Shown here: positions 36,648 through 61,476 of the stretch, piece by piece
How positions within the stretch are numbered: position 1 is the first letter of the stretch
Layout: each line of letters begins with the position of its first letter
NCBI GenBank assembly: GCA_035461765.1
Contig: DATHUY010000024.1
Span: 1 to 64,000 of the forward strand
Direction: 5' to 3'
Origin: Longimicrobiales bacterium
GTDB taxonomy: Bacteria > Gemmatimonadota > Gemmatimonadetes > Longimicrobiales > RSA9
Length of the DNA: 64,000 nucleotides
The notes under the pieces: model-generated
Databases searched by the model: none
What the model was told of the DNA's origin: nothing
The model's input: the letters and a program-made list of their open reading frames with translations, nothing else
Made by a program: the position numbers and the translations under genes

Positions 36648-36648
36648 G

Positions 36649-37086: not shown

Positions 37087-37108
37087 TGACCATTTCCTCG
37101 ATCTACCA

Positions 37109-37801: not shown

Positions 37802-37841
37802 TGAGCACTCTTCAGCAATGCGATGGCTGTGACGGACGCGT

Positions 37842-38765: not shown

Positions 38766-38789
38766 GGCATGCTCCCTGGACCTAGGTCC

Positions 38790-41179: not shown

Positions 41180-41187
41180 GATTTCTC

Positions 41188-42417
41188 CTAGCTCGTGCTG
41201 TTACGGAAGAGACCGCGCAGACCGCTGCGCTTCTTGCCGGCCAGCGGCTTGAGGCCGGCGATTTCAGCGCCTAGCGCACGCAAATCGTTCTTGACCGCGG
41301 AGTTGCGGTTGTCTGACATCAGCGGCTTACCGGCGTTGATCGAGTTGATCACGGCCTCGTAGTCGTTGGACAGTTTCCAGTGCACGTTCAGACCGAGCGT
41401 ACGATGAACCTCTTCGAGCGAGATGACGTTGTCGGGGTGATATCGGTTCACGACCAGGCGCACCCGGTCCTTCAGCTGTGCGCCGGTGATACGCTCGAGC
41501 AGCGGCAATGACCGCTTGATGTTGCGCAGTGACGGCAGATCGACCGCCGTCACTATGTAGATGGCGTCCGACTGTTCGAACGCCGCCGTGGCGGCCGGTG
41601 AGAACGAGCGCGGCGTGTCCACCACGACGTAGTCGTAATTGTGTTTCAGAAACTTCAGGATCTGCCGGATCTGATCGCCGCTGACCGCTTCCACCTTTTC
41701 CGGATGGAACGGCGCCGACAGCAGGTGGACACCCGACTCGTGTCGCTCGATATACGAGGCCAGCAGCTCGGCATCCAGTCGGTGAAAGTTGTGCACCAGG
41801 TCGACGAAGTTGAACCGGGGCTGCACGCCCAGGAACAGCGCGATCTCGCCCAGCTCCAGATCCAGATCGAGCAGCAGGACGCGCTTGTCTGTCAGCTGGT
41901 GCAGGTGAATGGCCAGGTTCGCGGCCACCGTCGAGGAGCCGGATCCCCCTTTTGCGCTGAAGAAGGCCAGCAGCTTGCCGGGTTCGTGAACCACGCCGCC
42001 CGCAGCGCCGAGCTTCCGCTCCATGCGCTCCAGTGCGCCGGAGAGTGACTCCTGCGTCAGCGGCTTCGTCAGATACTCCGATACGCCAGCCTGCATGGCG
42101 TTCATGAGCAGCTCCGGCGAGGGCGCCGGGCCGGCGGCCACGAAGCGCAGATCCGGATGCGAATCGGCCAGGAACTGCACCAGCTTCACCCCGAGTACGG
42201 GATCCGCTTCCAGGTCCACGAATACGATCACCGGCCGGGCCTCTCGCAGCTGCTTGAGCTGCTGATCGGCGATAGCCGTGAACGGTACCGTGATTTCCGC
42301 TGCAACCGTGATCGGCTGGCGCGACGCGGTAAGCGCGCGCTTCAGCGCTTCGCGGAATGCCGCATCCGTCGAGATCACGACGCTGGGGATGTTCACGGCG
42401 ATCATGGCTTCAGCCAT
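41188..42417 (-). CDS. tadZ: TadZ/CpaE-type localisation ATPase
   Basis: The 409-residue protein has a receiver-like N-terminal domain (about 10-125; no functional phosphorylation motif is obvious) and a MinD/ParA-like C-terminal domain with a deviant Walker A ([11 protein letters not shown]) and VVDTPRSFS. It places the Tad apparatus at a cell pole or site. It is between the secretin and tadA genes. Confidence 0.88.
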
Positions 42418-42435
42418 CGTTCTTCTGCCTCGAGC

Positions 42436-43767: not shown

Positions 43768-43825
43768 GGTTCTCCTTCGTCGGATAAGAAAGCGGCTCCC
43801 GCCCACGGGGCGACCGCAACAGGTT

Positions 43826-44650
43826 TTACTGGAATCGCGTTAGTGTCCGGACGCCGCCACGGAACGTCTCGACGATGGTCGCGTCCTCCCTGGACGGCTG
43901 CACACGCACGGACCGCGTAGCGGGAGTCGACTGCCGCGGCGCCTGGATCAGACCTGAAAGGCGTACCCCGCTGGTGTTCGTTTCCGCCATGTCCATCATG
44001 CCGCGCAGCGCCAGCTGAATGCGACCCTGCGTGGATGCCAGCGTCAGGCGCTCACCATCAGTCGGGGAGACCAGCAGTGTGATCACACTGACGGTAGCCG
44101 GCGTACCCTCGCGATCACGTTCCACCGTCTGACCAGCGGCGAGGACCGGTACGTTCTGCAGGATGAGTCGTGTCGTCGTAGAAGACGGATCATTACCATC
44201 GAGCGTGACCAGCACGTCGACGCGTGTACCCGCCGTCACGAATCCGGCCACCTGCACCACCTCGTCCACCCGCACGCTGACAGCCCGCATGCCCGCCGGG
44301 ATCAGGATTGGCAGGCCCCCGCCGCCGTTGCGGTCCGCCAGCTTCTCGCTCAGCAGCGGCTCATTGGCGCGGACATGCGCCAGCAACCCGCGCCCCACGA
44401 GCTCCTCGGCGGAGCCGGAGTATCCGATCGGCAGGACCTCTGCCGGCCACTCCACGAGTCGGATGTCCTCTGCGGCGAGGATCGACCCGACCGGCAGGTC
44501 ACGACCCGCCACGGCCAGGTGTACGACCCCCCGCTCCGTCACCACGGCCTTCAACGCTCCGCCGCGCACCTGACGGAGCGCAAGGAAACCGGCCGCGGTT
44601 CCCATGATAATGGCCAGCAGCAGGATAATCGGCAGCCGACTCGTTCTCAT
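43826..44650 (-). CDS. rcpC: RcpC/CpaB-type pilus assembly protein
   Basis: The 274-residue protein has one N-terminal transmembrane helix and a SAF/beta-clip domain at about 45-110 (HLAVAGRDLPVGSILAAEDIRLVEWP), diagnostic of CpaB/RcpC. It is a periplasmic component possibly linking the secretin to peptidoglycan. AAGGGA 7 bases before ATG 44650 supports the start. It is followed by the secretin gene. Confidence 0.9.
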   Translation of the reverse strand: MRTSRLPIILLLAIIMGTAAGFLALRQVRGGALKAVVTERGVVHLAVAGRDLPVGSILAAEDIRLVEWPAEVLPIGYSGSAEELVGRGLLAHVRANEPLLSEKLADRNGGGGLPILIPAGMRAVSVRVDEVVQVAGFVTAGTRVDVLVTLDGNDPSSTTTRLILQNVPVLAAGQTVERDREGTPATVSVITLLVSPTDGERLTLASTQGRIQLALRGMMDMAETNTSGVRLSGLIQAPRQSTPATRSVRVQPSREDATIVETFRGGVRTLTRFQ

Positions 44651-44720
44651 CGCAATTCCCTTTGTCTAACGTTGTGCAGCCTGTGTCCTTCTTCAGCCCG
44701 GAGGCTGTGCTTCAGCTCCC

Positions 44721-45233
44721 TCATGCGGCCGCGAACCACAGCGCGAAGATCGCTCCCGCGGCGATAGCCACGCCGTACGGGATGCTGACCGCGCCGGGCA
44801 TGGCGAGCGTCGTGCGCTCTCCTCTGCGGCCGGCCGTAATCACGTATTTCAGCAGTCCGCGCGTGTTGAGCAGCGCCGGCAGAATCACACCTCGTCGTGC
44901 CGTCCAGGCCAGCGACATCACCCCGCCCGCTATCGCGGTGGCGAGGAGCGCAACAAGAAATCCCTTCGGGCCCAGGAACGCGCCGACGGCCACCAGCAGC
45001 TTGGCGTCCCCGCCGCCGACGCCGCCCAGTGCGAAGAGCGGCATCACGAGCACCAGCGCGAGACCGGCTCCGAGCATTCCGTCCAGTAACGCGGTCGCGC
45101 CCAGAATCAGGCGCAGGACCAGCGCGGCCACGAGTGCGGTCACGGTAAGGCCGTTCGGTATGCGACGGAACCGCACATCCGTCCACATGGCAGCAAGGAC
45201 GACGGCCAGCAACGTGAGACTGAGTGCTGACAC
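44721..45233 (-). CDS. tadV: TadV/CpaA-type prepilin peptidase (A24 family)
   Basis: The 170-residue polytopic membrane protein contains the two catalytic aspartates of A24 prepilin peptidases (WTDVRFRRIPNG and GGGDAK) and about four to five helices. It cleaves the prepilin leaders of the two Flp proteins after Gly. GTG 45233 is preferred because AGGA lies six bases upstream, although a TTG six bases earlier is also possible. Confidence 0.9.
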   Translation of the reverse strand: MSALSLTLLAVVLAAMWTDVRFRRIPNGLTVTALVAALVLRLILGATALLDGMLGAGLALVLVMPLFALGGVGGGDAKLLVAVGAFLGPKGFLVALLATAIAGGVMSLAWTARRGVILPALLNTRGLLKYVITAGRRGERTTLAMPGAVSIPYGVAIAAGAIFALWFAAA

Positions 45234-45241
45234 TGCCAATC

Positions 45242-45418
45242 CTAGGATCCGCCGCCGAGTGCCTGGCCGAGCGCAAGGTTCGTGAACAGAGCACGCAGGT
45301 TGACGCCCAGCGCCGTCACCGTAGCAATCAGTGCTACCGCGATCAGAGCGACCATGAGGCCGTACTCCACGGCAGTTGCTCCGGAGGCATCATCCATCAG
45401 CTGGCGTAACAGTGTCAT
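45242..45418 (-). CDS. flp: Flp-type pilin 1
   Basis: The 58-residue prepilin has a short leader, the cleavage region SGATAVEYGLMVALIAVALI (cut expected after Gly) and a hydrophobic core with Glu/Tyr (EY) typical of Flp pilins. ATG 45418 has GGAG nine bases upstream. It follows the second Flp pilin gene in the direction of transcription, with a hairpin in between. The GC-rich 3' tail LGQALGGGS is longer than in its neighbour. Confidence 0.9.
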   Translation of the reverse strand: MTLLRQLMDDASGATAVEYGLMVALIAVALIATVTALGVNLRALFTNLALGQALGGGS

Positions 45419-45460
45419 TTCGGTCGTCTCCAAATTGTGTGGGCGTTCGGCCAGTGTGAG

Positions 45461-45488
45461 CCCGGGCCGGCTGAATGCACGGCCCGGG
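45461..45488 (-). terminator. Hairpin between the tandem flp genes
   Basis: CCCGGGCCG (45461-45469) pairs perfectly with CGGCCCGGG (45480-45488). It lies 12 bases beyond the end of the first-transcribed pilin gene, with no T-run. It likely acts as a partial terminator or mRNA stabiliser, giving more of the upstream pilin message. Confidence 0.6.
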
Positions 45489-45500
45489 ATGCCCCGAGCC

Positions 45501-45677
45501 TCAGCTGCCGGCGTTCTGCACGCTGCCTGCGACGCTGTTGAACTTGTTGTTCAGGTTCGTGCCCAGCAGCGCCACCGAGACGATGATCACGACCGCGATC
45601 AGGGCCACCATGAGGCCGTACTCGACTGCCGTTGCGCCCGACTCGTCGTTCCAGAACCGCTTCATCGCTGAAACCAT
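45501..45677 (-). CDS. flp: Flp-type pilin 2 (first in the operon)
   Basis: The 58-residue prepilin has leader MVSAMKRFWNDES and then the processing site GATAVEYGLMVALIAVVII, with the body ending in SVQNAGS. GGAGG 5 bases before ATG 45677 is the best start. It is first in the Tad operon on the minus strand and is probably the major pilin, preceded by a sigma-54-like promoter and a leader hairpin (45719-45737). Confidence 0.9.
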   Translation of the reverse strand: MVSAMKRFWNDESGATAVEYGLMVALIAVVIIVSVALLGTNLNNKFNSVAGSVQNAGS

Positions 45678-47814: not shown

Positions 47815-49194
47815 TCAACCGAAACCGGTGGTCAGTCCGTGCTTCTCGATGATGCGGTCGAGCCGACCTCGGGAAACGCGCAGGATCTCGGCGGCGCGGG
47901 ACTTATGTCCGCCGGTACGGGCCAGCACGTGTTGAACGTAGGCTCGCTCCATGTCCGCGAGTGAAGCAAGCCCCTCCTGCAGCTCGGGTGGTGCTCCCGC
48001 GAGCGAGGTCGGGCTGGCGCTCTCGCCAACGTCGAAATCGTCAGGTCCGAGTAAGGTATCCTGAGCCAGCACCACGGCTCGCATGATGGTGTTCTCCAGC
48101 TCACGGACATTGCCGGGCCAGTCATGGTTCAGCAGAACGGCCATGGCCGCATCGCTGATCACGGGCACCTGCTTGCCAAGGGTCGCGGCGGCCTTGGCGG
48201 CCAGATGGCGCGCAAGGCGCGGTATGTCGCTGAGGCGTCTGCGCAGCGGCGGGACCTGGAGCTCGACCACGCGGAGCCGGAAGTAGAGGTCCTGCCGAAA
48301 CGCGCCGGTGCGGGTCAGTTCTTCCACATTTCGATGTGTCGCCGCGATGATACGGGCGTCAGTGTGGCGCGCCGTCTCTCCCCCGACGGGATAGAACTCC
48401 TTTTCCTGCAGCACGCGCAGCAGCTTGGCCTGGAAGGCGGGGCTGGTATCACCGATTTCGTCCAGCAGGATGGTTCCGGAAGACGCGAGCTCGAAGCGGC
48501 CGCGCCGGTCCGAGCTGGCGCCCGTAAAGGAACCTTTGAGGTGCCCGAACAACTCCGATTCCAGAAGCGGCTCTGGCAGGGCGGCGCAGTTGACGGTGAT
48601 GAACGGCGCATGTTTCCGCGAGGAATTCTCGTGAATGGTACGCGCGACCAGCTCCTTTCCGGTGCCGGTCTCACCGCGGATAAGAACCGGAGCGTCGGTG
48701 CGCGCTACCCGCCCGACCAGCTTGTAGATCTCCAGCATCTGCGGGTCCCGTCCGACGAGGCGTCCGGTACCAGTCGGCATCTCGGGGACTTCGGGCGCGA
48801 CTCTCGCCTCGCTCAGGAGTGCCTGATTGACCACTTCATCGAGCTCGTCGAGGTCGAGCGGCTTCATCAGGAAGTCCGTGGCACCGCCAGTCATGGCGTC
48901 CACCGCCAGCTGCATGTCGTCGTGCGCGGTAATGAGCACCACACGTGCGCCAGGGGACCGCTCCATCAGCGTGCTGAGCAGCTCCATTCCGCTCATTCCG
49001 CCCATGCGGATGTCCGAGATGATGAGATGGGGCTCGAAGTTGCTGAACCGGCTCAGTGCCTGCTCGGCGGAATCGCATGCCAGCACCTCGAAGCCGCTGC
49101 GACCGAGGTGGCGCTCCAGGGCGGCACGGTGGGCGGCATCGTCTTCCACTACCAGAATCCTGCGTGTCGCGGTGTCGCCGTTGCTTCTCGTCAT
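47815..49194 (-). CDS. Sigma-54-dependent response regulator (NtrC family)
   Basis: The 459-residue protein has a receiver domain (about 12-125, phosphoacceptor Asp61), an AAA+ sigma-54 interaction domain with Walker A GETGTGKE and the loop GSFTGAS (a GAFTGA variant), and a C-terminal Fis-type helix-turn-helix. It activates RpoN promoters after phosphorylation by the kinase encoded just upstream, whose stop codon it overlaps by four bases. Candidate targets in the window are the sigma-54 sites at 45790 and 27084. Confidence 0.93.
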   Translation of the reverse strand: MTRSNGDTATRRILVVEDDAAHRAALERHLGRSGFEVLACDSAEQALSRFSNFEPHLIISDIRMGGMSGMELLSTLMERSPGARVVLITAHDDMQLAVDAMTGGATDFLMKPLDLDELDEVVNQALLSEARVAPEVPEMPTGTGRLVGRDPQMLEIYKLVGRVARTDAPVLIRGETGTGKELVARTIHENSSRKHAPFITVNCAALPEPLLESELFGHLKGSFTGASSDRRGRFELASSGTILLDEIGDTSPAFQAKLLRVLQEKEFYPVGGETARHTDARIIAATHRNVEELTRTGAFRQDLYFRLRVVELQVPPLRRRLSDIPRLARHLAAKAAATLGKQVPVISDAAMAVLLNHDWPGNVRELENTIMRAVVLAQDTLLGPDDFDVGESASPTSLAGAPPELQEGLASLADMERAYVQHVLARTGGHKSRAAEILRVSRGRLDRIIEKHGLTTGFG

Positions 49195-50930
49195 TTTGCA
49201 TTCGCAGCTGTCATGGTTCGTTTCTCCGCCACCGTGTCACCGGGAGCTGCGAGAGGCAGCTCGAGCACGAATTCCGCTCCACTATCCCATTCGGAGGCCG
49301 ATTCATAGCGCAGCACACCGCCGCACTCCTGAACGGCGCGCACCGCGGTCGGCAGCCCCACCCCGTTGCCGGAGGCCTTCGTGGTGAAGAAGGGATCGAA
49401 AATGCGCTCGCGCAGATGGGGCGGCACTCCCGGTCCGGTGTCCGCGACGCGCAATTCGAATCGCGGTGCGCCTGCCTCATCCAGGATTCGGGTAGTGACG
49501 GCAACACGCCGTCTGGTACTCCCCTGCATGGCATCGACACTGTTCAGCAGGAGATTGATGACGATGCTGCGGAGGGACGCAGACGCCATCGCCACGTCGG
49601 ACCGGGAAGCCTCCAGCCCCACTTCCACTTTTATGCCGCGCTCCGTGAACTTGCCTTGCATAACGCGCAGCGTCTCCTCGATAACGATGTGCGCGGTGCA
49701 CGTGCCGCTCGCCCGCGATTCTGCGCGACCCACTTCGAGCACCGTCCTGACCACATCGTCGAGCCGCTGCAGCTCGGAGAGGCAGAGCCCGACGAGATGC
49801 TCACCATCCTCCGGCACTTTGCCCGTGCGCAGATCACGCCGCAGCATCTGCAGGTTCAGCCGGATCGAGCTGAGTGGATTGCGAATTTCGTGGGACAGAT
49901 ACGTCGCCAGCTCCCCGACGGCCGCCATGGCCCGGCTGACCTCGATCTGTCGCAGGCTGCTCGCAAGCCGGTCGGCCATCCGGCCCAGCGCCAGCGAGAC
50001 CCGTCCGATCTCATCACCCGTCGGCGGCGGCAGCCATATGTCGAAGCGACCGTGGCCAATGGCGTCGGCAGCCGTCGATATGGCGGCGAGCCGCCTCATG
50101 TCACGCCGGATACCCGCCAGCACTACCACCAGCGCCGCCACGAGCACGGCGCCCATCAGACCGAAATACTGCCAGCGCAGGACGACAAAAGGCGCAGCGA
50201 ACTCGCCGTAGTCGAGACTCACGACCGTGGTCCATGCGGGCGCCACCGCCCGCGCCGTCGTCAGGACGACCGGGTCGGTGCGAAAGTCACTCAGATCGGC
50301 GGAGGCCGCCGTCCGGGGGGGCGCGGCGGCGTGTTCGATAACGCGGGCAGCCAGGGCTGCGGCCAGACCGTTCGGATCGTCGTTCGTGCTGATCGTGCAG
50401 CCCGGATCGAAGATCAGAGATCCGTCACCCGTGTTCATCACGGTTGTGAATCCGCGCTCGCCAAGGCGGGAGGCCACGGATGGCACGGCCGCAAAAAAAT
50501 CCTCCACGCTCATCCGCGCACCGACTCTGAATGGCTTCCCGGCAGCATCGAGGAAGCGCACATCGAACGGCACGCTTCCGGCCGCACACGAACCCGGCAG
50601 CGGATCCTGCCCGCGGTCCGCCTGGCCCGCCCGGTAGATCAGCGCGTCGCCGGCGTAAACCTCGACCAGCGAATATCGCCCGGTCGGCGCGGGCAGCGCA
50701 TCGACGGCACCCGCCGCAGCGGCGTAACCCAGTGCGCGCAGCTCCGCCTGGAGACCAGTGTGCCGCTGCTCGATGTCGCTCGCGACCTGCAGCGCCAGCG
50801 ATCCCGCCCGCGACTCGAGCACGTAACGCAGCGCGCGCGTGGACTGGACGTAGTCACTCAGGCCGAAGACGGTGATCGTCAGGACGGCAAAGACGACGAA
50901 CCAGCCGATGATCTTGCGGTGGAGGGACAT
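49191..50930 (-). CDS. Membrane sensor histidine kinase (HAMP)
   Basis: The 579-residue protein has an N-terminal transmembrane helix (~8-28), a periplasmic sensing region of about 220 residues, a second helix (~254-274), HAMP (~275-325), a HisKA dimerisation domain with His347 (YLSHEIRNPL) and an HATPase domain with DTGPGVP. It is a PilS/NtrB/AtoS-like kinase paired with the downstream regulator by a 4-base overlap. The signal is unknown. The gap 50931-51091 before it holds no other gene. Confidence 0.92.
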   Translation of the reverse strand: MSLHRKIIGWFVVFAVLTITVFGLSDYVQSTRALRYVLESRAGSLALQVASDIEQRHTGLQAELRALGYAAAAGAVDALPAPTGRYSLVEVYAGDALIYRAGQADRGQDPLPGSCAAGSVPFDVRFLDAAGKPFRVGARMSVEDFFAAVPSVASRLGERGFTTVMNTGDGSLIFDPGCTISTNDDPNGLAAALAARVIEHAAAPPRTAASADLSDFRTDPVVLTTARAVAPAWTTVVSLDYGEFAAPFVVLRWQYFGLMGAVLVAALVVVLAGIRRDMRRLAAISTAADAIGHGRFDIWLPPPTGDEIGRVSLALGRMADRLASSLRQIEVSRAMAAVGELATYLSHEIRNPLSSIRLNLQMLRRDLRTGKVPEDGEHLVGLCLSELQRLDDVVRTVLEVGRAESRASGTCTAHIVIEETLRVMQGKFTERGIKVEVGLEASRSDVAMASASLRSIVINLLLNSVDAMQGSTRRRVAVTTRILDEAGAPRFELRVADTGPGVPPHLRERIFDPFFTTKASGNGVGLPTAVRAVQECGGVLRYESASEWDSGAEFVLELPLAAPGDTVAEKRTMTAANAK

Positions 50931-51091: not shown

Positions 51092-52744
51092 TCACCGTCC
51101 AACCCTGTATATGGTCACGCGACCCTCCTGTGACCGCCAGGCTTCGTGAAGAAAGTCCGGCCAGCGGCTGTTGAGCCGCTCGATCTGTTCACGGAGTGGT
51201 ATCCTCTCGCCAAAGAGCTCCAGATCCTCCAGAACAACGTGTGTAACGTGATGCTCGACAAGCAGGTTACGAAGAGTGTCCTCGCTTCCGAGTGCCCCCG
51301 CAGGCGCACCGGGAGCATAGTACAGGCGGTAGGGGTCAGCCGCGAAGGCCCTTATCCCTTTTCGACCGCTGTACAACGAGTAGATGGGGTCGAGGTTCGC
51401 GGCGATGACCGCGTTCGCCGGTGTGTTCCGTTCGATCCAGTCGACCCCCGCCAGTACTTCTCGCCCTTCCAGCCGTTCGGTGCGGCTGATCGATACCGTG
51501 TTCCACCCCCCCGTATGCCATGTCGGGGGAATGTGCTGGCTCACTCCGAGCAGCAGCAGGGCGCCGGCGATAATTCGCCCGACCGTCACAGTCCACCGCG
51601 CACCCTCTGCGAGTGAGCGCGGTGCGAGCCCCAGCAGATAGACAGGCACCACGGGCACGACAAATCGGAGTGGTGGCCACATCCACAACAGCACAACCGC
51701 GACTGTACCCAGCAGCCATACTGCCGGTGCTGCGAGACGGCTTCTCAGCATTCCAAGGACACCCGCGACGGCAAGGACCATGACCATCACGAGCAGCCAG
51801 GGAATCTGCAGGCCTGCCGGGAGGTTCCAGAGCCAGGCGGGAGCCAGAGCGAGAGCCGCGAGGTTGGTGCTGAGAACGTTGCCCAGAACGCTGACCCCGC
51901 CACTCAGGACATTCCAGCTCGAGTAGTTGCCGCTGGTGTAGTAGGCCAGAGTCGCATCGAGCGGACCGTCATGAGCGGATTGCCAGAGGAACCACGGCAG
52001 GCAGAGACCCAGCCAGACCAGACCGAACGCGAATGCAGCATTGAGGCTTCGCCGTTGCCACAGCGTCACGGCCGCGGCAGGCAACAGAGTGAAGCCGATG
52101 GTCCGGGTATGGAACGCGAGAGAACAGACGACGGCCAGAAGGACGGCGCTACGCAGCGGCAAAGAACCACTCCCGCGGCCGATCCGCACCATGAGCAGAA
52201 TCGCCCAGGTGGATAGCGCTGCAAACAGCGTCTCCGAAAGCAGGTGCGTTCCCAGATAGAGCGTCAGTGGCGCCGCAAGCATCAGCAGTATGATCCAGGT
52301 TGCGGCTTCCCTTCTGCCGAGCTCCTCCCCGATCAGCTTCCACAGCAGCCACATCCAGAGCCACATGGCGGCCCACGGCACGAGCCGCAGAAGAGGGAGA
52401 TTCTCAGGGAAGTGCGGATATGCTTTCCAGACGAGGGCGAGCAGTGCAGGGAAAAGGACAGGATACTTCGTCTGCGGCAGCGGATCAGGAAGGCTTGCGA
52501 TGGAATACCCGTCGCCCTCCGCCAGGGCGCGTGCCGTCACCAGGTAAACGGCGTCATCATGATAGCCTCCCGCGTACGACGACAGCAGATCCGGCAGCTT
52601 GAGCGCCGTGATGGCGACAACGACGGTCGCGGCTGCCGCGCGGAAACGCCACGCATCTTTCGAGTCCTGCCCGCTCAGTGATGGCGCATCCGACTGCAGT
52701 TCCCGGGCGGATCGCGGCGGGACTGCGGCGTCCGCCGCCATCAC
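51092..52744 (-). CDS. GT39-like polytopic glycosyltransferase
   Basis: The 550-residue protein has about 11-12 transmembrane helices and the early loop YHDDAVYLVTARALAEGDGY, characteristic of GT39/ArnT-type enzymes using polyprenyl-phosphate sugars. A soluble C-terminal part follows from about residue 430. It is last in the seven-gene polysaccharide cluster and overlaps the DUF362 gene by four bases. It may modify the polymer or a lipid carrier. ATG 52744 is taken because of that overlap. Confidence 0.8.
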   Translation of the reverse strand: MMAADAAVPPRSARELQSDAPSLSGQDSKDAWRFRAAAATVVVAITALKLPDLLSSYAGGYHDDAVYLVTARALAEGDGYSIASLPDPLPQTKYPVLFPALLALVWKAYPHFPENLPLLRLVPWAAMWLWMWLLWKLIGEELGRREAATWIILLMLAAPLTLYLGTHLLSETLFAALSTWAILLMVRIGRGSGSLPLRSAVLLAVVCSLAFHTRTIGFTLLPAAAVTLWQRRSLNAAFAFGLVWLGLCLPWFLWQSAHDGPLDATLAYYTSGNYSSWNVLSGGVSVLGNVLSTNLAALALAPAWLWNLPAGLQIPWLLVMVMVLAVAGVLGMLRSRLAAPAVWLLGTVAVVLLWMWPPLRFVVPVVPVYLLGLAPRSLAEGARWTVTVGRIIAGALLLLGVSQHIPPTWHTGGWNTVSISRTERLEGREVLAGVDWIERNTPANAVIAANLDPIYSLYSGRKGIRAFAADPYRLYYAPGAPAGALGSEDTLRNLLVEHHVTHVVLEDLELFGERIPLREQIERLNSRWPDFLHEAWRSQEGRVTIYRVGR

Positions 52745-53730
52745 ACCGCCAGATGCTGAAATCTGTCGAGCAGTCGATACTTCTGACCGTATGTGCTCAC
52801 CTGCTCACCGATCTGCTCGATGCGGTCATCCTCCACATTCCCCAGGAAAGTGGCGCTAGTGCTCAGATACGCCATCTTCGTCGGATCGAGGCCCATGAGG
52901 CGCGCACCTGTCGCGTCAACTGCCACCGGGTCGGCGCCGAACACGAGCACGCCGCTATGGCGCGCGTCCCCCTGAATGGGACCGTTGCCTTCCATGCCGA
53001 CGATGCCGTCGACGATGTTGAATCGTGGCACGTCCAGCGCAGCGTTGATGTCCATGATGCTGTTCTCGATGCCGTGCCAGTGCAGGACGTTCTTCGGCCA
53101 GCCGTAAACGGAGCCGGGGACGATGCCGAACATGTTCTTCATCGAGAGCGTGGCACCGGCCCACTTGTGAGTCTTGAGCTTCGGCATCGACACGATCAGA
53201 TCGGCATCGAGAACCGATTCCGGGAGATAGAGCGCACCGAGCCCGGTGAACGGTGTGCGAAGACCTGTCTTTCTGACACTGTCGGTGTTCAGATCCACGT
53301 ATCGGGATCCGGCGTCGCGCATGGCGTAGCCCAGACCGGATGCGTCGAGCAGATACTCGTTGTCACGGCGATGGCCCGGCCCCTCAGCGACAACCACCTC
53401 GCGCGCGCCGAGCTTCCGGAACGCTTCGACAGTCGCTGCGATGAGCGCAGGTTGCGTATTGATGACGCCGTTCGGATCGAACTCGACCAGGTTCGGCTTC
53501 AGCAGTACCCGGCGGTCGCGGACATCCAGGTCGAACAGGCGCAGACCGCGCAGCACGGTGTCGCCAAGTGCGTCGTCGTACTCGGCATGCGCCAGAATCG
53601 CGATCCGGGAGCGGTCAGGGCGAGAGAAGCGCGATGGATCGACCGTCGGCTGCTCTGGCGGGCTGCACCCCGCGGCTGCTCCGGCGGCGGCCATCGCTGA
53701 AACCTTCAGAAACTCGCGCCTGTCGATCAT
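52741..53730 (-). CDS. DUF362 family Tat lipoprotein
   Basis: The 329-residue protein starts with a Tat signal (DRREFLKVSAMAAAG) that contains a lipobox (AAGC). The rest is DUF362, with KPNLVEFDPN, MPKLKTHKWAGATLSMKN and GNGPIQGDARHSGVLV. DUF362 proteins are often redox-linked, but no ferredoxin cysteine motif is visible here. It is coupled by 4-base overlaps to both neighbours in the polysaccharide cluster. Function unknown. Confidence 0.8.
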   Translation of the reverse strand: MIDRREFLKVSAMAAAGAAAGCSPPEQPTVDPSRFSRPDRSRIAILAHAEYDDALGDTVLRGLRLFDLDVRDRRVLLKPNLVEFDPNGVINTQPALIAATVEAFRKLGAREVVVAEGPGHRRDNEYLLDASGLGYAMRDAGSRYVDLNTDSVRKTGLRTPFTGLGALYLPESVLDADLIVSMPKLKTHKWAGATLSMKNMFGIVPGSVYGWPKNVLHWHGIENSIMDINAALDVPRFNIVDGIVGMEGNGPIQGDARHSGVLVFGADPVAVDATGARLMGLDPTKMAYLSTSATFLGNVEDDRIEQIGEQVSTYGQKYRLLDRFQHLAV

Positions 53731-54653
53731 GGGGTCACGCGGAAGTGAGGCTGTCGTTCATCGAGCGCAAGCAGGGCAAACGCAGTAGTGCGGACTTCGC
53801 CATTGGAGACGAGCGCGGGCAGGCGCCCGCGCAGATCGTCGCGTTCAGCCGTGATATCGTGCCCATAGAGTTGCAGTGCAAGGATCGAGAGTGCAAGAAC
53901 GAGCGAGGAACGATAGCCGGAGAGCATCTGCCGCAGTACCGCGATGCTCGGCTCGGTGACCCCCTCGATCCGGTGATCCTGCAGTGCGATGAGCGCGAGC
54001 GCCGTCGTATCAGGATAAGGCGACAGGTCGAATCCCAGAACTGCCTTGTTGCCGTAGTTCCAGCCGCCGCCGCGACACATCCGGTCGGCCAGCAGTCGGT
54101 GCGCCTCCTCGATGCGGTCGCGAGTGGGGCGTTGCGGCAGGGTCGAGCGTACCTCCTTCAGCGCCAGCAGTGCCCACGATGTCGGCTCCACCCACGGGGA
54201 CGTGCCGTCAGCCCAGGGCCAGCCGAGAAGCTCGGGGTCCTGATCGACGAGCGGTGGTGCTGACGACAGGCGCATGATGATCCGCTGCAGGAACGTAGGA
54301 CCGCGGCTGCGGTTGGCGAGCAGCCATCGCGCTCCGCGCTCCGCATGCCCCCCGTCGGCCGCCGCACGGGCGAGTGCAAACGATGCCACGCTGGTCATCC
54401 AGCTGCTGTCGGGCACCTGCTCGCTCATCGGCCAGCTGCCGTCCGCGCGCTGGCTCGTTCGCAGCCAGGCGATGCCGCCCCTCAGATGAGGTGCGGCGTC
54501 GTCAACTGCATTCTGCCATGCGTTGAGAGCGAGCACGGCGAGCGCTGTGCACTCCGTGTTTGCGGGTGCGCCGCGCCGCCAGCCCCAGCCGCCCTGTCCG
54601 TTCTGCACCGCTGTCAGTGCCGCCAGGGCGGCAGCAATGTCGTTCGACTGCAC
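53727..54653 (-). CDS. Prenyltransferase/squalene-cyclase-like alpha/alpha toroid protein
   Basis: The 308-residue protein shows repeated helical segments with QW-like turns (GQGGWGWRRG, ADGSWPM, GGGWNYGNKA), as in the squalene-hopene cyclase and prenyltransferase-beta superfamily. The DxDD catalytic motif is not seen, and the nearby PYPDTTALAL region lacks it. It is likely a half-size, non-cyclising member. GTG 54653 is chosen because it starts within 8 bases of the preceding stop, but no clear ribosome site is present, so the N-terminus is uncertain. Confidence 0.65.
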   Translation of the reverse strand: MQSNDIAAALAALTAVQNGQGGWGWRRGAPANTECTALAVLALNAWQNAVDDAAPHLRGGIAWLRTSQRADGSWPMSEQVPDSSWMTSVASFALARAAADGGHAERGARWLLANRSRGPTFLQRIIMRLSSAPPLVDQDPELLGWPWADGTSPWVEPTSWALLALKEVRSTLPQRPTRDRIEEAHRLLADRMCRGGGWNYGNKAVLGFDLSPYPDTTALALIALQDHRIEGVTEPSIAVLRQMLSGYRSSLVLALSILALQLYGHDITAERDDLRGRLPALVSNGEVRTTAFALLALDERQPHFRVTP

Positions 54654-54660
54654 GTCGCGT

Positions 54661-56292
54661 TCAGAAGCCCCAGGAACCGGAGAGTACCATCGCCTGGTAG
54701 CGATACCCCGCGTCGCCCGGCGTGAGCCGCTCGAGCCCCAGCTCAGAGAACGTGACACCGATTCCGATCTCGCGCCCGGGCGCGATTGTGTACCCGACAC
54801 GTGCCCGGGCACTGAGCGCGCCCTGCATGTCGCCGTCACTGCCGATGCGCTGCGCGCCCGGCGCGGCCTCGGCGCTGATGGACCAGCGGCTCATGTACCG
54901 GTCGATGCCGATGCCCAGCTCGGCCAGGCCATACTCGTCCGGAGCGAAGTAGCCCTCCTGCACGGTGTTCTCGAAGCGGAACGCCGTGACGCGCGGGCGC
55001 ACGCGCAGCCATGATGTGGGCCGCACCTCGAGCCCGACGCGACCGAGCAGCCGGTCGTTCGACGTCAGGCTCTCGAAGCGCGTGAATGAGAAGCCGGCAT
55101 CCACCCGGAGCGAGCGCAGCGGCTCGGCACCCGCCGACAGCGATACGTTGTCCATCGTGACGTCGCGCCCCATCAGGTCGGCGGTCGCGTCGAGCACGCT
55201 GTGCGACCATGCGGCCGACGCGGTTACGGGCAGCCATGCCGGTGATGCGATAGCCGCACTGTAGACGGCGGTGGGATCGCCGGCGGACCGGTCGGTCACG
55301 CCGCCGGCGGCCGACAGCGCCCAGCCGTCACCGAGCTCGGCGCGCAAGCCGGCCAGCGCCGACCTGGACTCCGGCGTCGGATCCGTGCCGAGCGGGGTCG
55401 GCCCGTCCGCCCGTCGCACATAGCCGTTCAGCGTGGCGGACACCCTGCGCGTGAACGGCACCGTCGCATTGATGGCCGCCGTGTACAGCCGGTTCTCATC
55501 CGAATCCGTCTCGGCCGAGAACGTCGGCGCAACGCGCGGCGCGAAGCCGGCTTCGGCCCATGCCAGCTGCTCGAGCACATCACGGTCGTCCGGACGGAGC
55601 CGGGCGGCTGCTTCCGCATGGTCCAGCGCCTCGCGGCTGCGGCCGCGCCAGCGAAGCACCTGGCTCATGCCTACATGGGCATCCGCGTTGTCCGGCTCCG
55701 CCGCGAGCGCATCCCGCCAGAGCCTCTCCCCGGCCTTCAGGTCGCCGCGCCAGGTCGTGACGCGCGCCATTCCGCGCAGCGCTTCGGCGTCCGACGCATC
55801 CGCGTCGATCAGCGCGCGATACGCGGAAGCCGCTTCGCCGTAACGCCCGGCCCACGACAGGAACCGGGCACGCGTGTGCAGCGCGTCCGATGTCGCGGCA
55901 TGCGCGATGACATCATCCAGCACGGCCAGCGCACGATCGTAGCTGCCGCTCCATGCCAGCACGTTCGCGAGGTCGGTGCGCGCCTCCGCAGAGGGCGCCA
56001 GGCGGACGACGCGCTCGAGCAGCGGTATCGCGCGGACGTACTCGCGCTCCCAGCCGAACAGCAGGCCCAGCCGATGCAGCGCCTGCACGTCCATCGAGTC
56101 TGCCGCGACACGCTGCGTGTACAGCGCGCGCGCCTGTGCATGGTCGCCCGCCGCCCAGGCTGCTGCGGCCGGATCCTCCTGCTGCGCGGTCGCAGGCATC
56201 GTCACCAGTGCCTGCATCAGCACGGCCCCCGCGACCGCGAGCAGAACATGTCTCATCGTGAGTATCCTCATCGTTGTCTCTCGCGCGCTCAT
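54661..56292 (-). CDS. TPR protein with C-terminal outer-membrane barrel (YaiO/PgaA-like)
   Basis: The 543-residue protein has a signal peptide (ending near ATAQ), tetratricopeptide repeats from about residue 40 to 255 and a barrel of about 16 strands from 265 to the end (WGF terminus). This arrangement fits exporters of exopolysaccharides such as PgaA, or the YaiO family. It would form the outer-membrane pore that receives the polymer. ATG 56292 overlaps the previous stop codon; ATG 56271, with GAGAG upstream, is an alternative. Confidence 0.8.
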   Translation of the reverse strand: MSARETTMRILTMRHVLLAVAGAVLMQALVTMPATAQQEDPAAAAWAAGDHAQARALYTQRVAADSMDVQALHRLGLLFGWEREYVRAIPLLERVVRLAPSAEARTDLANVLAWSGSYDRALAVLDDVIAHAATSDALHTRARFLSWAGRYGEAASAYRALIDADASDAEALRGMARVTTWRGDLKAGERLWRDALAAEPDNADAHVGMSQVLRWRGRSREALDHAEAAARLRPDDRDVLEQLAWAEAGFAPRVAPTFSAETDSDENRLYTAAINATVPFTRRVSATLNGYVRRADGPTPLGTDPTPESRSALAGLRAELGDGWALSAAGGVTDRSAGDPTAVYSAAIASPAWLPVTASAAWSHSVLDATADLMGRDVTMDNVSLSAGAEPLRSLRVDAGFSFTRFESLTSNDRLLGRVGLEVRPTSWLRVRPRVTAFRFENTVQEGYFAPDEYGLAELGIGIDRYMSRWSISAEAAPGAQRIGSDGDMQGALSARARVGYTIAPGREIGIGVTFSELGLERLTPGDAGYRYQAMVLSGSWGF

Positions 56293-58919
56293 GGGTTCAC
56301 CACGCGCGCTGCCGGAGTCAGTTCCTGGAATACCTGCCGCATGGCGTCGAACACCGGGCGGCGCCGGCTCCGGAAGCGCGGCTGCTCCCAGGCCGTCCAT
56401 GTGAAATGCGCGACATCCTGACTCTGGCCTGACTCCGGCCAGACCTGCCACTCGCCGCGCGCCCCGCGCGCGGCGGCGACGATGCGGATGCCATCCACCT
56501 GCCGCGATTCAGTGGTGGCGGGATCCCGCACGTAACGGCTGCTGGGGTCGGTCACGCCGATGAGGCTCCACGGAATGCGAACTTCGATCGCACCGGCGCC
56601 GATGCGTTCCCACGCTCCATCCGGGAGCGGACCCTCGCGCAGCACGCCGCGGTCATAGCCCATCCCCAGGTAATGCGTCGAATCGGCCGCGACCCGGGCG
56701 CGGTTCACTACGGTCAGAAGACGCTCGTAACGGCCGTCCGCCTTCGACGCGCGGCTGTGTGCCGGCCGCAGGCCATGCGTGTAGGAGCCCGTGAAGAAGC
56801 CCGTCGGCCTGTTCTGGATCTGACTGGCAATGTCACCCCGCACCGCGCCGCGCGGCAGCGTCTGCACCTCGAACGCGAAAGCACCCGGAGCCGCGACGAT
56901 ACGCGCCTCCGCGGAATCGATCTCGAGCACATACTCCAGTCCTGCGGCGCTCGGCGGTGCACCCGCGCCCGGGAACCGCAGCGCGCCGGCGGCGGCATCG
57001 ACGATGTCGAAGCCGACGGCCAGACTGCCGATCGTGGCGGCCGTGGCGGCCGGACCGCTCACGTGCAGCCACAGGAAGGCCTCGTCGGCATGTGTGCGGA
57101 TGCGTGTGCCGTCCGCGCCTGCGTAGAGCGGCGCGATGGTGTCCCATGCAGCACGGCGCTGCCCGAGTGTTTCGCCCAGCCGCATGACAGGCTCGAGCGC
57201 GTTCACGCCGTAGTGCTGCTCCGGGTTCATGCGGTTCCACCACATGCGGTTCCGCTCGGCGGGCTGCTCGTTGGGCTGCTCGACCCAGCTATGCTTGAAC
57301 CACTCGTCGATCCACGCGAACAGCACGCCGCCCGCCATGTTCGCCGCTGCGATCTCGCGTGTGAGCCGCGCATTGATCTCCGCGCTCTCCGCCTCTGTAT
57401 GGCCGCCGTGATGCCAGCCCTGCGGATTGAAGTGCGCGATGCCCCAGCTCGTCGGCACACCGTACTCCGCGATGACGAGCGGCACGCCCTGGAACCGCTG
57501 CTTCAGGTCCGTCATGTAGCCGAAGTACGACGACTTACCGTACGGAGACTCCGCCGCGCCGTAGACCGGGTCGTGCACCAGGAAGTCCGGGTAGTACGGG
57601 TAGACGTGGAACGCCGCGAACCAGCCGGCCGGGTACTGCGCCGTCGCGCTCACCGGCACCTCGCCCAGCGCGACCTCATCCTCGTTGTGCACACGCCGGG
57701 TCCGATCGTAGTCCACACCGCGGATCGCCAGCTCATCCTGGCTGTTGATCTCGACCGCGTGTCGCATCGGGTCGAGCGTCGGCCAGTTCGTGTAGGCGAC
57801 AGGTCGTTGTGTGCGATACTCCAGCGTTTCGTACGCGACCGCGTGGTCCATCGCTTCCGCCATCCAGGCATCCATTGCCGGCGCGTCATCGATCCCCACG
57901 TAACGGCCGTCCCACCCGCGCGGACCGGGGTAGCGCTCGTTGAATTCCGCGACCGAGTACGGCTCCCACTCGCGGCCGAGGATCAGGCCGAGCGTCCAGC
58001 GCGACACATCGGCGGTGTAGTAGCCGGCCGCGTGGCCGGGCCGCGGCCGCACATCCGCACGGCCGTGCAGCACGTCGATGACGCGCTCCATCTCGCCGAA
58101 GAACTCCGCCTTCCAGATCGCGTTATGGTAGTCGTCGCCCGGCGGCAGCTCCGCCCACACGCCGTGCAGCAGCCACAGCGCGCGATCCGGGTGCGCCTCG
58201 TTGTGCGCGGCGAGCGCGCTGTAGAACGATGGCGGGTGCAGCGTGTAGACGCGGATGGTGTTCGTGCCCATCGCGGCGATCTCATCGATCCAGCCGCGGT
58301 ACGTTGCCGAATCGGGGAACTCGCTCGGGAACCGGCCGGGCAGAGCCGCGCCGATGTTTACACCCTTGATATAGAACGGCGACCAGCCACTGGCAGTGCG
58401 AACCTCCAGGATGTCGCCGTTGGCGCGTGCATGGAACACCAGCGAGTCCGGGAGCAGGAGCTCCGGCCGGTCCGGCCGCGGACCCATGCCTTCCGGTACA
58501 CTCGCGAGGTGACGACGCACGTCATCACGCTCGGGATCGAGCCGCAGTACCTGCTCGAACAGGCTGCGCGCCTCGTCGTACTCCACGGCGCGCCATGCGA
58601 CGAGGCCCAGGCCCGTGAGCGCGTCCACGTGCCGAGCGTTGTGCTTCAACACCCATTCCAGGTGCATGCGTGCGCTGTCCAGTTCGGCATTGCGCAACGC
58701 GACATAACCGAGGCCGACGCGCGACTCGATGTGGTCCGGGCAGCGGGCGCGCGCGGCCGCGAATGCGCGTTGCGCCTGTGGCAGCCGATTCGCCTGGTAC
58801 TCTCGCCAGCCGGTCGCGGTGTACGCATCCGCGACGTCCGGACACTGGAGTGCCGGCGGCACCGACACTGCGGTTGCGGCGAGTATCGTCCCGGCCACGA
58901 TCACGAGGGAGCGTATCAT
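56289..58919 (-). CDS. TPR and glycoside-hydrolase-like periplasmic protein
   Basis: The 876-residue protein has a signal peptide, TPR-like repeats (about 30-140), a (beta/alpha)8-type glycoside hydrolase domain of clan A style (about 175-550) and a beta-rich C-terminal region (about 590-876). Likely acid/base Glu319 (REWEP) and nucleophile Glu485 (VIAEYG) are visible. It may trim or handle the nascent polymer as PgaB or PslG do. No deacetylase domain is seen. It overlaps the GT2 gene and the barrel gene by four bases each. The substrate is unknown. Confidence 0.78.
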   Translation of the reverse strand: MIRSLVIVAGTILAATAVSVPPALQCPDVADAYTATGWREYQANRLPQAQRAFAAARARCPDHIESRVGLGYVALRNAELDSARMHLEWVLKHNARHVDALTGLGLVAWRAVEYDEARSLFEQVLRLDPERDDVRRHLASVPEGMGPRPDRPELLLPDSLVFHARANGDILEVRTASGWSPFYIKGVNIGAALPGRFPSEFPDSATYRGWIDEIAAMGTNTIRVYTLHPPSFYSALAAHNEAHPDRALWLLHGVWAELPPGDDYHNAIWKAEFFGEMERVIDVLHGRADVRPRPGHAAGYYTADVSRWTLGLILGREWEPYSVAEFNERYPGPRGWDGRYVGIDDAPAMDAWMAEAMDHAVAYETLEYRTQRPVAYTNWPTLDPMRHAVEINSQDELAIRGVDYDRTRRVHNEDEVALGEVPVSATAQYPAGWFAAFHVYPYYPDFLVHDPVYGAAESPYGKSSYFGYMTDLKQRFQGVPLVIAEYGVPTSWGIAHFNPQGWHHGGHTEAESAEINARLTREIAAANMAGGVLFAWIDEWFKHSWVEQPNEQPAERNRMWWNRMNPEQHYGVNALEPVMRLGETLGQRRAAWDTIAPLYAGADGTRIRTHADEAFLWLHVSGPAATAATIGSLAVGFDIVDAAAGALRFPGAGAPPSAAGLEYVLEIDSAEARIVAAPGAFAFEVQTLPRGAVRGDIASQIQNRPTGFFTGSYTHGLRPAHSRASKADGRYERLLTVVNRARVAADSTHYLGMGYDRGVLREGPLPDGAWERIGAGAIEVRIPWSLIGVTDPSSRYVRDPATTESRQVDGIRIVAAARGARGEWQVWPESGQSQDVAHFTWTAWEQPRFRSRRRPVFDAMRQVFQELTPAARVVNP

Positions 58920-60349
58920 GCCGCCTCACCCAGCGCGCGGCGCTCCAGCACACCCTTCTTCTCCATCGCGCCCCAGTCCCGCCGACCGAGCATCGCCATG
59001 ATGAGCCCCTTGAAGCGCGCGAACGCGAGATATTGCCGATACCCGAGGTTCTCGATGACGGACAGCAGTAGCAGCCGCCCGAAATCCCTGCCGCCGGTGT
59101 AACGCCTGAAGCTGAGCTCCTCGAGCGCAACCGCCGCCAACGACAGGGCGATGCCGGAGAATACGCTCAGCAGCAGGAACGCTACGACGAACTCCGTCGC
59201 GACCCAGCCGAAGATGAACGCGATTGTGAACGCGGCGTAGCCGAGTACCTCGACGGCCGGTCCGAACCCTTCCATGAACCAGAAGTACGGGTATGCGACC
59301 ATGCCAATGCGTCCGTACTTCGGGTTGAGAAGCATTACCTTGTGCGCCGCGAGGCTCTGCATCAGCCCGCGCTGCCACCGGTCACGCTGACGCGCCAGCA
59401 CACGCAGATTCTCCGGCACTTCCGTCCATGCGACGGGGTCCGGCACGAACTGTACTTCATAGGGCTGTCGGCGCTCCCGCATGTAGCGGTGCAGCCGGAC
59501 GATCAGCTCCATGTCCTCGCCCACGCTGCGCACCGAGTAGCCGCCCGCTCCCACCACCACGTCGCGGCGGAACATGCCGAACGCGCCCGACACGATCAGC
59601 AGCACGCCGCCGTTCGACCAGCCCATGCGCCCCGCCAGGAATGCGCGCAGGTATTCGACCACCTGGAGCTGAGCCAGCAGGTTCTTCGGGAGGCGCACGT
59701 CACGAACGTGGCCGTCCTTGAACGTCGATCCGTTCGCAACACGCACGATTCCGCCCGACGCGATGACGTCGCCGTTCTCCAGGAACGAACGGCAGAGGCG
59801 CAGCAATGCGTCCTTCTCCAGCGCCGTGTCAGCGTCGAGTGAACAGAATAGCGGAGTGTGGCAATGATCGAGCGCGACGTTCAGTGCATCCGACTTGCCG
59901 CCGTTCTCCTTGTCGATGACCCAGAGATCCGGGAACGTCGCGCTCTGATAGATGCCCCGGACGACGCCCTTCCCCAGACTCGATGTCGGGCTGCGGAACG
60001 CGGGCTGCAGATCGTACTCGCGCTTCAGCAGCGACATCGTCGCGTCCGTCGAGCCGTCGTTCACGAAGATGACTTCGTAGCCGGGATAATCGAGGTCCAG
60101 CAGCGAGCGCAGCGCGCCCAGGCAGTTGGCGGCTTCATTGTACGCCGGCACCAGAATGCTCACCGGCGGCGCACTGCCGAACCTCACCAGATCATCAACA
60201 GTGCCCGCATTCAGACTTCGCGAGTACTGCCGCAGCGCGCGAAAGCTCATGATACTGGACGCGAAGTAGTACCCGTTCAGGATAACGAAGTAGGCGAGCA
60301 CCAGGATGTGGAAGACATAGAGCGACGTCCACGCGATCTCGAGCAGCAT
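58916..60349 (-). CDS. Processive GT2 polysaccharide synthase
   Basis: The 477-residue membrane protein has one or two N-terminal helices and about four C-terminal helices around a GT2 domain. Motifs are VPAYNEAAN, VNDGSTD, DAD (172-174), GED (278-280) and QRDRW (321-325, the QxxRW of processive enzymes). These match polymerising synthases such as PgaC, BcsA or hyaluronan synthases. The start codon ATG 60349 overlaps the stop of the HEAT gene (TAATG), with GGAGGAG upstream. The polymer sugar cannot be told from the sequence. Confidence 0.9.
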   Translation of the reverse strand: MLLEIAWTSLYVFHILVLAYFVILNGYYFASSIMSFRALRQYSRSLNAGTVDDLVRFGSAPPVSILVPAYNEAANCLGALRSLLDLDYPGYEVIFVNDGSTDATMSLLKREYDLQPAFRSPTSSLGKGVVRGIYQSATFPDLWVIDKENGGKSDALNVALDHCHTPLFCSLDADTALEKDALLRLCRSFLENGDVIASGGIVRVANGSTFKDGHVRDVRLPKNLLAQLQVVEYLRAFLAGRMGWSNGGVLLIVSGAFGMFRRDVVVGAGGYSVRSVGEDMELIVRLHRYMRERRQPYEVQFVPDPVAWTEVPENLRVLARQRDRWQRGLMQSLAAHKVMLLNPKYGRIGMVAYPYFWFMEGFGPAVEVLGYAAFTIAFIFGWVATEFVVAFLLLSVFSGIALSLAAVALEELSFRRYTGGRDFGRLLLLSVIENLGYRQYLAFARFKGLIMAMLGRRDWGAMEKKGVLERRALGEAA

Positions 60350-61476
60350 TACTCCTCCCGTCCTGCCGCGCGGCGCGGCTCATCTGACGAGGCGTCTCCT
60401 GCTGGCACGAGCATGCTGAGAGCTGAACGGGTCGAACCCATCGCGGGACCCGTGTCGGCGCTGTCGATGACCGGCGCAGAAGGCGTCGAGCTACGACCGC
60501 GCAGCTTCAGACCGTGCGCCGCGGCGCGCGCTACCCATGGCGAGGAATCGTGCACGGCGGGCTCTACGATGTCGGCGAGGTCGGCGTCATCACCGATGCG
60601 GGCGAGGCAGGCGACCGCCTGCCCGCGGACTATCTCATCCTGAATACGGCACAGGTTGCGAACGACGTCGCGCTGTTCCGGAGTCGATCCCGAACCGAGC
60701 AGTCGCAGTGACGCCGCCAGCAGATTGGTGTCGTTCTCTTCCAGCAGCACACGGGCCGCGACACCTGCCGCCTGCACGTAATCCAGCTCAGCCAGCGCGT
60801 CGGCGCATACGGCACGGGAGTATGGCGGTCGTGTCAGGTCTGCGAAGGTCTCGGCAAGAGCGGGCGCCGCCGAGGGACCGAATGAGACCAGCACGGACCG
60901 CAGCAGACGCCGGTCCCAGTTGTGATACCGCTCGAGCCGGGCGAGCAGTGGAGCCACCGGCCCCACGCCTACCTGGGCGTACGCGCGGGCGGCCGTCATC
61001 GCCACATGCGGCTCCGCAGCATCCAGCCCGGCCACGATCGCGTCGCGGGCCCCGAGCCCGGCCAGCTCCGATAGCGTCCGGATCGCGCGCGCGCGCTGCC
61101 ACACGTCTCCGGTCCGGGCCCGCTTCTCCAGTACAGCCAGATACGGCTGTGCCAGCTCCTGATACAGCCGACGGCGAGCGGGCCGCGTCTCCGACACAAG
61201 CACCTTGTACAGATAGTCCAGCAGCACGACGTGTTCGGACGGTTTGATTCGCGAGTGCAGCGTAGCTGCGTCGCCCGAGCCATGCACAATGGACGCGATT
61301 ACAGCGTCCATCTTCGTCTCCAGCTTCGCCCAGAGAGCCGCTTTTCGCATGTTCGCCCGCCGCAGCCGCGCAGCGGCCGCCAGAAAGGCGACGGCGACCG
61401 CGAACATCACTGCGGTTGCAACGACCACTGCGAGCAGGGCAGGACTCGCCTGTGTCAATGTCGACAGCACGTCCAC
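60349..61476 (-). CDS. HEAT-repeat membrane protein
   Basis: The 375-residue protein has an N-terminal transmembrane helix (~12-36), a basic segment and repeated HEAT-type helices from about residue 110 to 340 (ARAIRTLSELAGLGARDA, AALRYVQAAG-type repeats). The end is a short Ser/Pro/Gly tail. It is first in the operon, ahead of the synthase, and may act as a scaffold for the synthase. GTG 61476 is used; GGGG about 8 bases upstream supports it. Confidence 0.78.
   Translation of the reverse strand: MDVLSTLTQASPALLAVVVATAVMFAVAVAFLAAAARLRRANMRKAALWAKLETKMDAVIASIVHGSGDAATLHSRIKPSEHVVLLDYLYKVLVSETRPARRRLYQELAQPYLAVLEKRARTGDVWQRARAIRTLSELAGLGARDAIVAGLDAAEPHVAMTAARAYAQVGVGPVAPLLARLERYHNWDRRLLRSVLVSFGPSAAPALAETFADLTRPPYSRAVCADALAELDYVQAAGVAARVLLEENDTNLLAASLRLLGSGSTPEQRDVVRNLCRIQDEIVRGQAVACLARIGDDADLADIVEPAVHDSSPWVARAAAHGLKLRGRSSTPSAPVIDSADTGPAMGSTRSALSMLVPAGDASSDEPRRAAGREE

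Follow-up and report, generated by a model that had tools for sequence, protein, structure and literature searches.

Gene Content of the Locus

The analyzed DNA, called the window here, is a stretch of 64,000 nucleotides from a Longimicrobiales bacterium (Gemmatimonadota; contig DATHUY010000024.1 of assembly GCA_035461765.1, positions 1 to 64,000). Between positions 51092 and 61476 its minus strand carries seven closely packed genes, the first four of which were studied as a candidate machine for making and secreting an exopolysaccharide. The initial annotation had described seven back-to-back genes, and this was borne out: all seven open reading frames were present at these coordinates, with junctions of −1, −4, −4, +7, −4, and −4 (or −1) bases. 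The HEAT-repeat and GT2 genes overlapped by 1 base (TAATG), and the GT2 gene shared 4 bases (ATGA) with the hydrolase gene. The hydrolase and barrel genes overlapped by 4 bases if the barrel starts at the ATG at 56292; another possible ATG lies at 56256. A gap of 7 bases separated the barrel gene from the toroid gene (start GTG 54653), which in turn overlapped the DUF362 gene by 4 bases. The last junction, between the DUF362 and GT-C-like genes, was an overlap of 4 bases with GTG 52744 or of 1 base with ATG 52741. The promoter and terminator scan gave nothing notable inside the run. Family searches upheld the HEAT, GT2, TPR, toroid, and Tat (twin-arginine translocation) DUF362 identities proposed earlier.

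The HEAT Protein and the GT2 Synthase

Core gene 1 (60349–61476, minus strand) encodes a HEAT-repeat protein (PF13646 HEAT_2, E=5e-11) with a single N-terminal transmembrane helix (residues 14–32), and no other full-length copy was found in the window genome. Core gene 2 (58916–60349, minus strand) encodes a putatively processive GT2 glycosyltransferase (Glyco_tranf_2_3, E=4e-24) with hydrophobic segments at both ends, the predicted inner-membrane polysaccharide synthase. The DAD, GED, and QxxRW motifs reported for it earlier stood up in an alignment of 19 homologues, where D172xD174, E278-D279, and Q321xxR324W325 were invariant. These motifs (DxD, ED, and QxxRW) mark GT2, at the level of sequence, as a membrane-embedded synthase of the processive type. 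Its nearest NCBIfam model was PgaC_IcaA (TIGR03937), at 125.8 bits vs. a cut-off of 422.3, and the BcsA model (TIGR03030) scored 46.5 bits vs. a cut-off of 699. In three genomes (L180, L181, and L182; for example, L180:7347-9482), the GT2 frame ran into a 237-residue, β-rich, barrel-like tail; the synthase may be fused there to an outer-membrane protein, or a pair of genes may have been joined in the reading.

The Hydrolase and the Barrel

Core gene 3 (56289–58919, minus strand) encodes a secreted protein with a signal-like N-terminal segment. Its AlphaFold2 model (predicted local distance difference test score (pLDDT) 83, predicted template modelling score (pTM) 0.81) showed TPRs at about residues 28–140, a clan GH-A-like (β/α)8 glycoside hydrolase (GH) domain at about 160–600, and a C-terminal β-rich domain at about 603–868, in agreement with the earlier label of a TPR plus glycoside-hydrolase-like protein. 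E317 (codon 57969–57971, minus strand), in a GREWEP motif at the end of strand 4, is the proposed catalytic acid/base, and it was Glu in 102/102 homologues covering the position. E485 (codon 57465–57467, minus strand), in an EYGVP motif on strand 7, is the proposed nucleophile and was Glu in 101/101. Foldseek gave a GH157 enzyme as the best match (E=2e-12, about 10% identity); whole-model template modelling (TM) scores were low because only the catalytic part aligned. The matched GH157 structure was crystallized with laminaribiose. GH5, GH2, GH72 (Gas2/Gel4), and GH17 enzymes were also among the top matches.

The search of the full hydrolase against the PDB was swamped by TPR matches, and the GH domain was therefore used alone. 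The only plausible match of this domain profile among PDB sequences was LaGH157, at a non-significant E=0.21. In that alignment E485 fell on LaGH157 E224 (numbered by counting along the alignment), the position that carries the mutation in PDB 9g4n. No useful Pfam match was obtained for the GH and C-terminal domains, and the C-terminal domain gave nothing useful against the PDB. On the strength of the signal-like segment, the GH-A-like fold, and the two invariant Glu residues, core gene 3 encodes a predicted periplasmic polysaccharide-modifying enzyme.

Core gene 4 (54661–56292, minus strand) encodes a signal peptide, TPRs, and a β-barrel. The AlphaFold2 model (pLDDT 92.4) placed 16 strands after the TPRs, and Foldseek matched it to BcsC (9b8a, E=4e-14), PelB (9h80), and PgaA (4y25, TM 0.79 on the PgaA barrel); the TPR region also had a weak NCBIfam match to PgaA. 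The earlier description as a TPR plus barrel exporter is thus consistent with the model, and the protein is a predicted outer-membrane exporter of the TPR and barrel type. YaiO (PF19413/TIGR04390) was absent from this protein and from the whole window genome.

Conservation of the Four-Gene Core

The hydrolase protein was searched against 298 genomes of the phylum, and strong full- or part-length relatives were found in 36. GT2 was present in 35 of these 36 genomes and in 51 of the 262 others (Fisher p=9e-21, uncorrected for kinship). For the comparison of loci, surroundings were fetched, genes were called and labelled, and sequence-sharing loci were removed, which left 89 unique hydrolase loci with flanks of about 10 kb, many on short contigs. 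The barrel was found in 55 of them, GT2 in 49, and HEAT in 34. Same-strand neighbours were counted before deduplication, with some loci entered twice: HEAT was followed by GT2 in 43 cases (modal gap −4) and the hydrolase by the barrel in 41, C1 (the gene preceding HEAT in relatives) stood before HEAT in 19, and GT2 stood before the hydrolase in 16. Gene ends overlapped in most HEAT–GT2 and hydrolase–barrel pairs, across phyla. Natural fusions were also observed, joining HEAT to GT2 at one locus (L109, 1021 residues) and hydrolase to barrel at others (L039, L040/L075, and L098). The repeated occurrence of HEAT next to GT2, and of the hydrolase next to the barrel, in different phyla puts the arrangement of the first four genes far beyond chance. 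The proposal that HEAT is a real, if unusual, partner of the synthase gains from the 43 adjacent pairs and the fusion.

A scan of GTDB species genomes gave at least 595 candidate stretches, 564 of them confirmed by tblastn, and 80 loci were returned. The loci among the matches listed belonged to Gemmatimonadota, Acidobacteriota (including Geothrix), Bacteroidota, Cyanobacteria, Spirochaetota, Cloacimonadota, Delongbacteria, Eisenbacteria, Thermus, and Bacillota. The Bacillota loci retained GT2 and the hydrolase, and usually HEAT too, and no barrel was detected in L136, L139, L141-L143, L145, L147, L151, and L152. This fits a barrel that serves as a pore of the outer membrane, and it parallels the pore-gene loss on record for Gram-positive synthase-dependent systems (PMC7112194). 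A form of Bacteroidota and Cloacimonadota had the order GT2-barrel-GH without HEAT, followed by a nearly unannotated protein of about 610 residues (e.g., L107:12885-14720) with a weak match to the GH42 trimerisation domain. In Thermus igniterrae (L122) and Cyanosarcina (L093), a hydrolase homologue was observed, but its surroundings showed no synthase of this family; the partner of these hydrolases may be an unlinked synthase or one of another kind.

HEAT-Associated Signalling Genes

The C1 gene beside HEAT encodes Hpt and receiver domains, with GGDEF in some cases, a layout common to Gemmatimonadota and Bacillota. Among the C1 GGDEF motifs checked, some were intact (GGDEF/GGEEF) and others lacked the motif. 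A same-genus relative (L194) showed C1-HEAT-GT2 at a contig end. Around the GT2 genes of genomes mostly without the hydrolase, C1-HEAT-GT2 was the arrangement in most loci, a HEAT match was present in 18/19, and part of these loci had a YaiO barrel next. In two loci (L188:9137-12302 and L198:3740-6989), HEAT-GT2 was followed by a YaiO barrel, a 473-residue protein, and a GH16 protein; the 473-residue protein has membrane helices and a CX5R phosphatase-like motif (HCYLGKDR). Two further loci (L191:3711-7103 and L193) carried an enlarged HEAT gene (about 1130 residues, 9 HEAT_2 stretches) beside a divergent GT2.

In the GT2 tree, HEAT-linked synthases were separated with full support from the Bacteroidota/Cloacimonadota clade that lacks HEAT. 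On this tree the hydrolase label has to change at least 9 times and the YaiO label at least 4 times; the labels hang on the fetched flanks, and at least one (L050, whose hydrolase was missed by gene calling) is wrong. The separation and the label changes therefore point to HEAT-GT2 as a stable inner core whose outer parts are exchanged.

HEAT stands in the position of the regulatory subunit of a synthase operon. No PilZ domain was found in the nine proteins scanned, so the earlier statement that PilZ is missing holds for these, and no c-di-GMP subunit of a recognised type was seen in the locus. As relatives carry Hpt and receiver domains, some with GGDEF, beside HEAT, signalling of this kind does exist in the lineage, and the statement on PilZ needs this qualification.

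Neighbouring Genes

The genes that follow the barrel behaved differently from the core. The toroid gene (53727–54653, minus strand) encodes an alpha/alpha-toroid of the squalene-cyclase/prenyltransferase-like type. The earlier cyclase-like label has a SQHop_cyclase match in its favour (E=2e-5), which lies below the Pfam cut-off. A search of other genomes of the order turned up only one good homologue of the toroid. Next comes the gene for a Tat-signal DUF362 protein (52741–53730, minus strand; PF04015, E=1e-48). The last gene of the run (51092–52744, minus strand) had been called GT39-like, a weak label, as its sole Pfam match was to the Alg9-like PF03901 at E=0.023; with at least 9 hydrophobic, transmembrane-like segments, "GT-C-like multi-pass membrane protein" is the safer name. 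Weak homologues of it occurred in 43/154 genomes of the order, and none was detected beside the core. The toroid/Tat-DUF362 pair was seen in two genomes of the family (window 52741–54653 and L179:7109-9036), independent of the polysaccharide genes.

Just downstream, in the next operon, lie a sensor histidine kinase (HAMP-HisKA-HATPase; 49191–50930, minus strand), a possible but unproven regulator, and its paired NtrC-type sigma-54 response regulator (47815–49194, minus strand). Nothing was found to tie this NtrB/NtrC-like pair (47815–50930) to the operon, and the sigma-54 promoter pattern had 14 matches in the window vs. 28 expected by chance. Further along the window, a by-eye reading of the translations gave a Tad/Flp pilus-like cluster (35616–45677), with two Flp-type pilins at 45242–45677 and Tad-like genes upstream.

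Comparison with Known Systems

Five synthase-dependent exopolysaccharides were recognized in a systematic survey: cellulose, acetylated cellulose, poly-N-acetylglucosamine (PNAG), alginate, and Pel (PMC7112194). The present locus resembles this class in having an inner-membrane synthase, a periplasmic carbohydrate-active enzyme, and a TPR plus barrel protein in one operon, and in losing the barrel in Gram-positives. It differs by a HEAT membrane protein in the position of a PilZ/PelD/PgaD-type subunit for cyclic di-GMP (c-di-GMP), by a hydrolase domain absent from Pfam, and by a GT2 that belongs to neither the PgaC nor the CelA equivalog. The barrel is like BcsC, PgaA, and PelB in combining TPRs with 16 strands in a confident model; it shares only 12–15% identity with them, has few TPRs, and is sometimes fused to the hydrolase. 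LaGH157, an endo-β-1,3-glucanase, was the best structural match of the hydrolase with the catalytic Glu in register, whereas the window enzyme adds the TPR and β-rich C-terminal domains and is encoded with a synthase.

Searches of the seven proteins for components of known systems gave no family match to the PgaB deacetylase/GH153 or PgaD, no PilZ, BcsB, or GH8 (BcsZ) match, and no Pfam or NCBIfam match to PelA/D/F/G or Alg8/44/X. The bit score of GT2 rules out the PgaC equivalog. The initial annotation had noted the lack of a deacetylase and of Pel- or Alg-specific subunits and had taken the locus for a synthase-dependent system fitting no described one; both statements agree with these searches and with the missing YaiO.

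The little-studied E. coli yaiO-yaiX-yaiP-yaiS cluster is alike in placing a GT2 beside an outer-membrane barrel, and other HEAT-GT2 loci share the true YaiO barrel with it. However, identity to E. coli YaiP reaches only 30% across the GT core, the yai stretch has no annotated gene for a HEAT, TPR, or hydrolase protein, and the window genome has no YaiO. In E. coli K-12, yaiX (L199:4845-6873), the middle gene of yaiO-yaiX-yaiP, is annotated as IS2-interrupted in MG1655. No description of a HEAT-GT2 polysaccharide system was found in the open-access literature; subscription papers or preprints might hold one.

Alternative Readings

The initial annotation had treated all seven genes as one locus, with the toroid and DUF362 proteins as partners of the synthase. 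Under that reading the toroid, DUF362, and GT-C-like proteins would add a lipid-linked decoration in this lineage only, a side sugar could come from the GT-C-like enzyme, and the tight spacing (a gap of 7 and overlaps of 1–4 bases) would allow co-transcription. However, none of the three genes occurred in any of the 89 unique hydrolase loci, the nearest locus, from the same family (L036), has acetate kinase after the barrel, and in L179, also of the family, toroid and DUF362 are adjacent in a fetched stretch without any of the four core genes. A single seven-gene system with such a decoration is thus quite improbable, and the unity of the seven genes was rejected. Genes 1–4 stay together in relatives and genes 5–7 never recur with them; therefore, the run is a conserved four-gene machine followed by an unrelated three-gene tail.

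The identity of the polymer leaves room for two proposals. A divergent pga system, in which GT2 makes poly-β-1,6-N-acetylglucosamine and the GH protein replaces PgaB, would account for PgaC_IcaA being the best NCBIfam model of GT2, for the weak PgaA match of the barrel TPRs, and for the fold match to 4y25. We consider it unlikely, since GT2 falls outside the PgaC equivalog, as do its homologues in Bacillota and Bacteroidota, PgaD and the deacetylase are missing among the window genes scanned, and the fold of the GH-like domain is similar to those of GH157 and GH72/GH17. The other proposal is a refinement of the four-gene reading: the polymer would be a β-1,3-glucan (curdlan-like or mixed-linkage) and the periplasmic enzyme a β-1,3-glucanase or glucanosyltransferase. 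The closest fold, GH157, and then GH72 Gas2/Gel4 and GH17 among others, suggest this, as do the LaGH157 profile match with its matching catalytic Glu and the GH16 hydrolase of a sister HEAT-GT2-YaiO locus; the GH16 family includes laminarinases. Against it, the LaGH157 sequence match was not significant, GH5 and GH2 were also among the fold matches, and GH16 acts on several glycans. In addition, the resemblance of GT2 is to synthases of the PgaC type and does not settle which sugar is used, so that N-acetylglucosamine polymers stay in consideration. β-1,3-glucan is our leading guess for the polymer, a possible rather than a probable one.

Proposed Mechanism and Implications

Gene order, coupling, fusions, motifs, predicted folds, and recurrence argue that genes 1–4 form one machine that makes and secretes an exopolysaccharide by a synthase-dependent route, a reading to which we give a probability of about 75%. 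For complex formation, enzyme activity, and regulation, as for the polymer, we infer the following steps. GT2 would polymerise a nucleotide-sugar, and its membrane helices would serve as the passage of the chain to the periplasm. HEAT, bound to the cytosolic side of GT2, may serve as a regulatory or co-polymerase subunit in place of PilZ, PelD, or PgaD. The TPR plus hydrolase protein would abut the TPR domain of the barrel protein and clip or transglycosylate the chain, and the 16-stranded barrel would carry the polymer across the outer membrane. In most relatives HEAT probably passes on to the synthase the state of the Hpt-receiver(-GGDEF) protein encoded next to it; in the window genome this partner is not beside HEAT, and control would therefore be transcriptional or come from elsewhere.

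Several observations weigh against this reading. The GH domain might be degradative or inactive. GT2 lay within about 10 kb of the hydrolase in only 49/89 loci, the parts being often unlinked or the contigs short. HEAT-GT2 can occur without the hydrolase and barrel, with partners switching, and the Bacteroidota/Cloacimonadota form does without HEAT. Moreover, no C1 gene stands beside the window HEAT, and elsewhere in the genome only short, mostly receiver-sized matches to it were found.

More tentatively, and at somewhat less than even odds, we propose a further, cross-phylum class of synthase-dependent polysaccharide systems with HEAT-GT2 as the most stable core. HEAT, rather than PilZ or another known c-di-GMP receptor, would couple a phosphorelay/GGDEF hub to the synthase, and the hydrolase and pore would be swappable (GH157-like with TPR-barrel, or YaiO, in one group with GH16), the product being probably a β-1,3-linked glucan. 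The four-gene machine would add to the five surveyed polymers (PMC7112194) one that spans Gram-negative and Gram-positive phyla, together with a new type of synthase partner (HEAT) and a hydrolase family outside Pfam. Named carrier strains among the GTDB matches listed (Geothrix, Sporosarcina, Cohnella, and Pontibacillus) would make the identity of the polymer and the function of HEAT directly testable.

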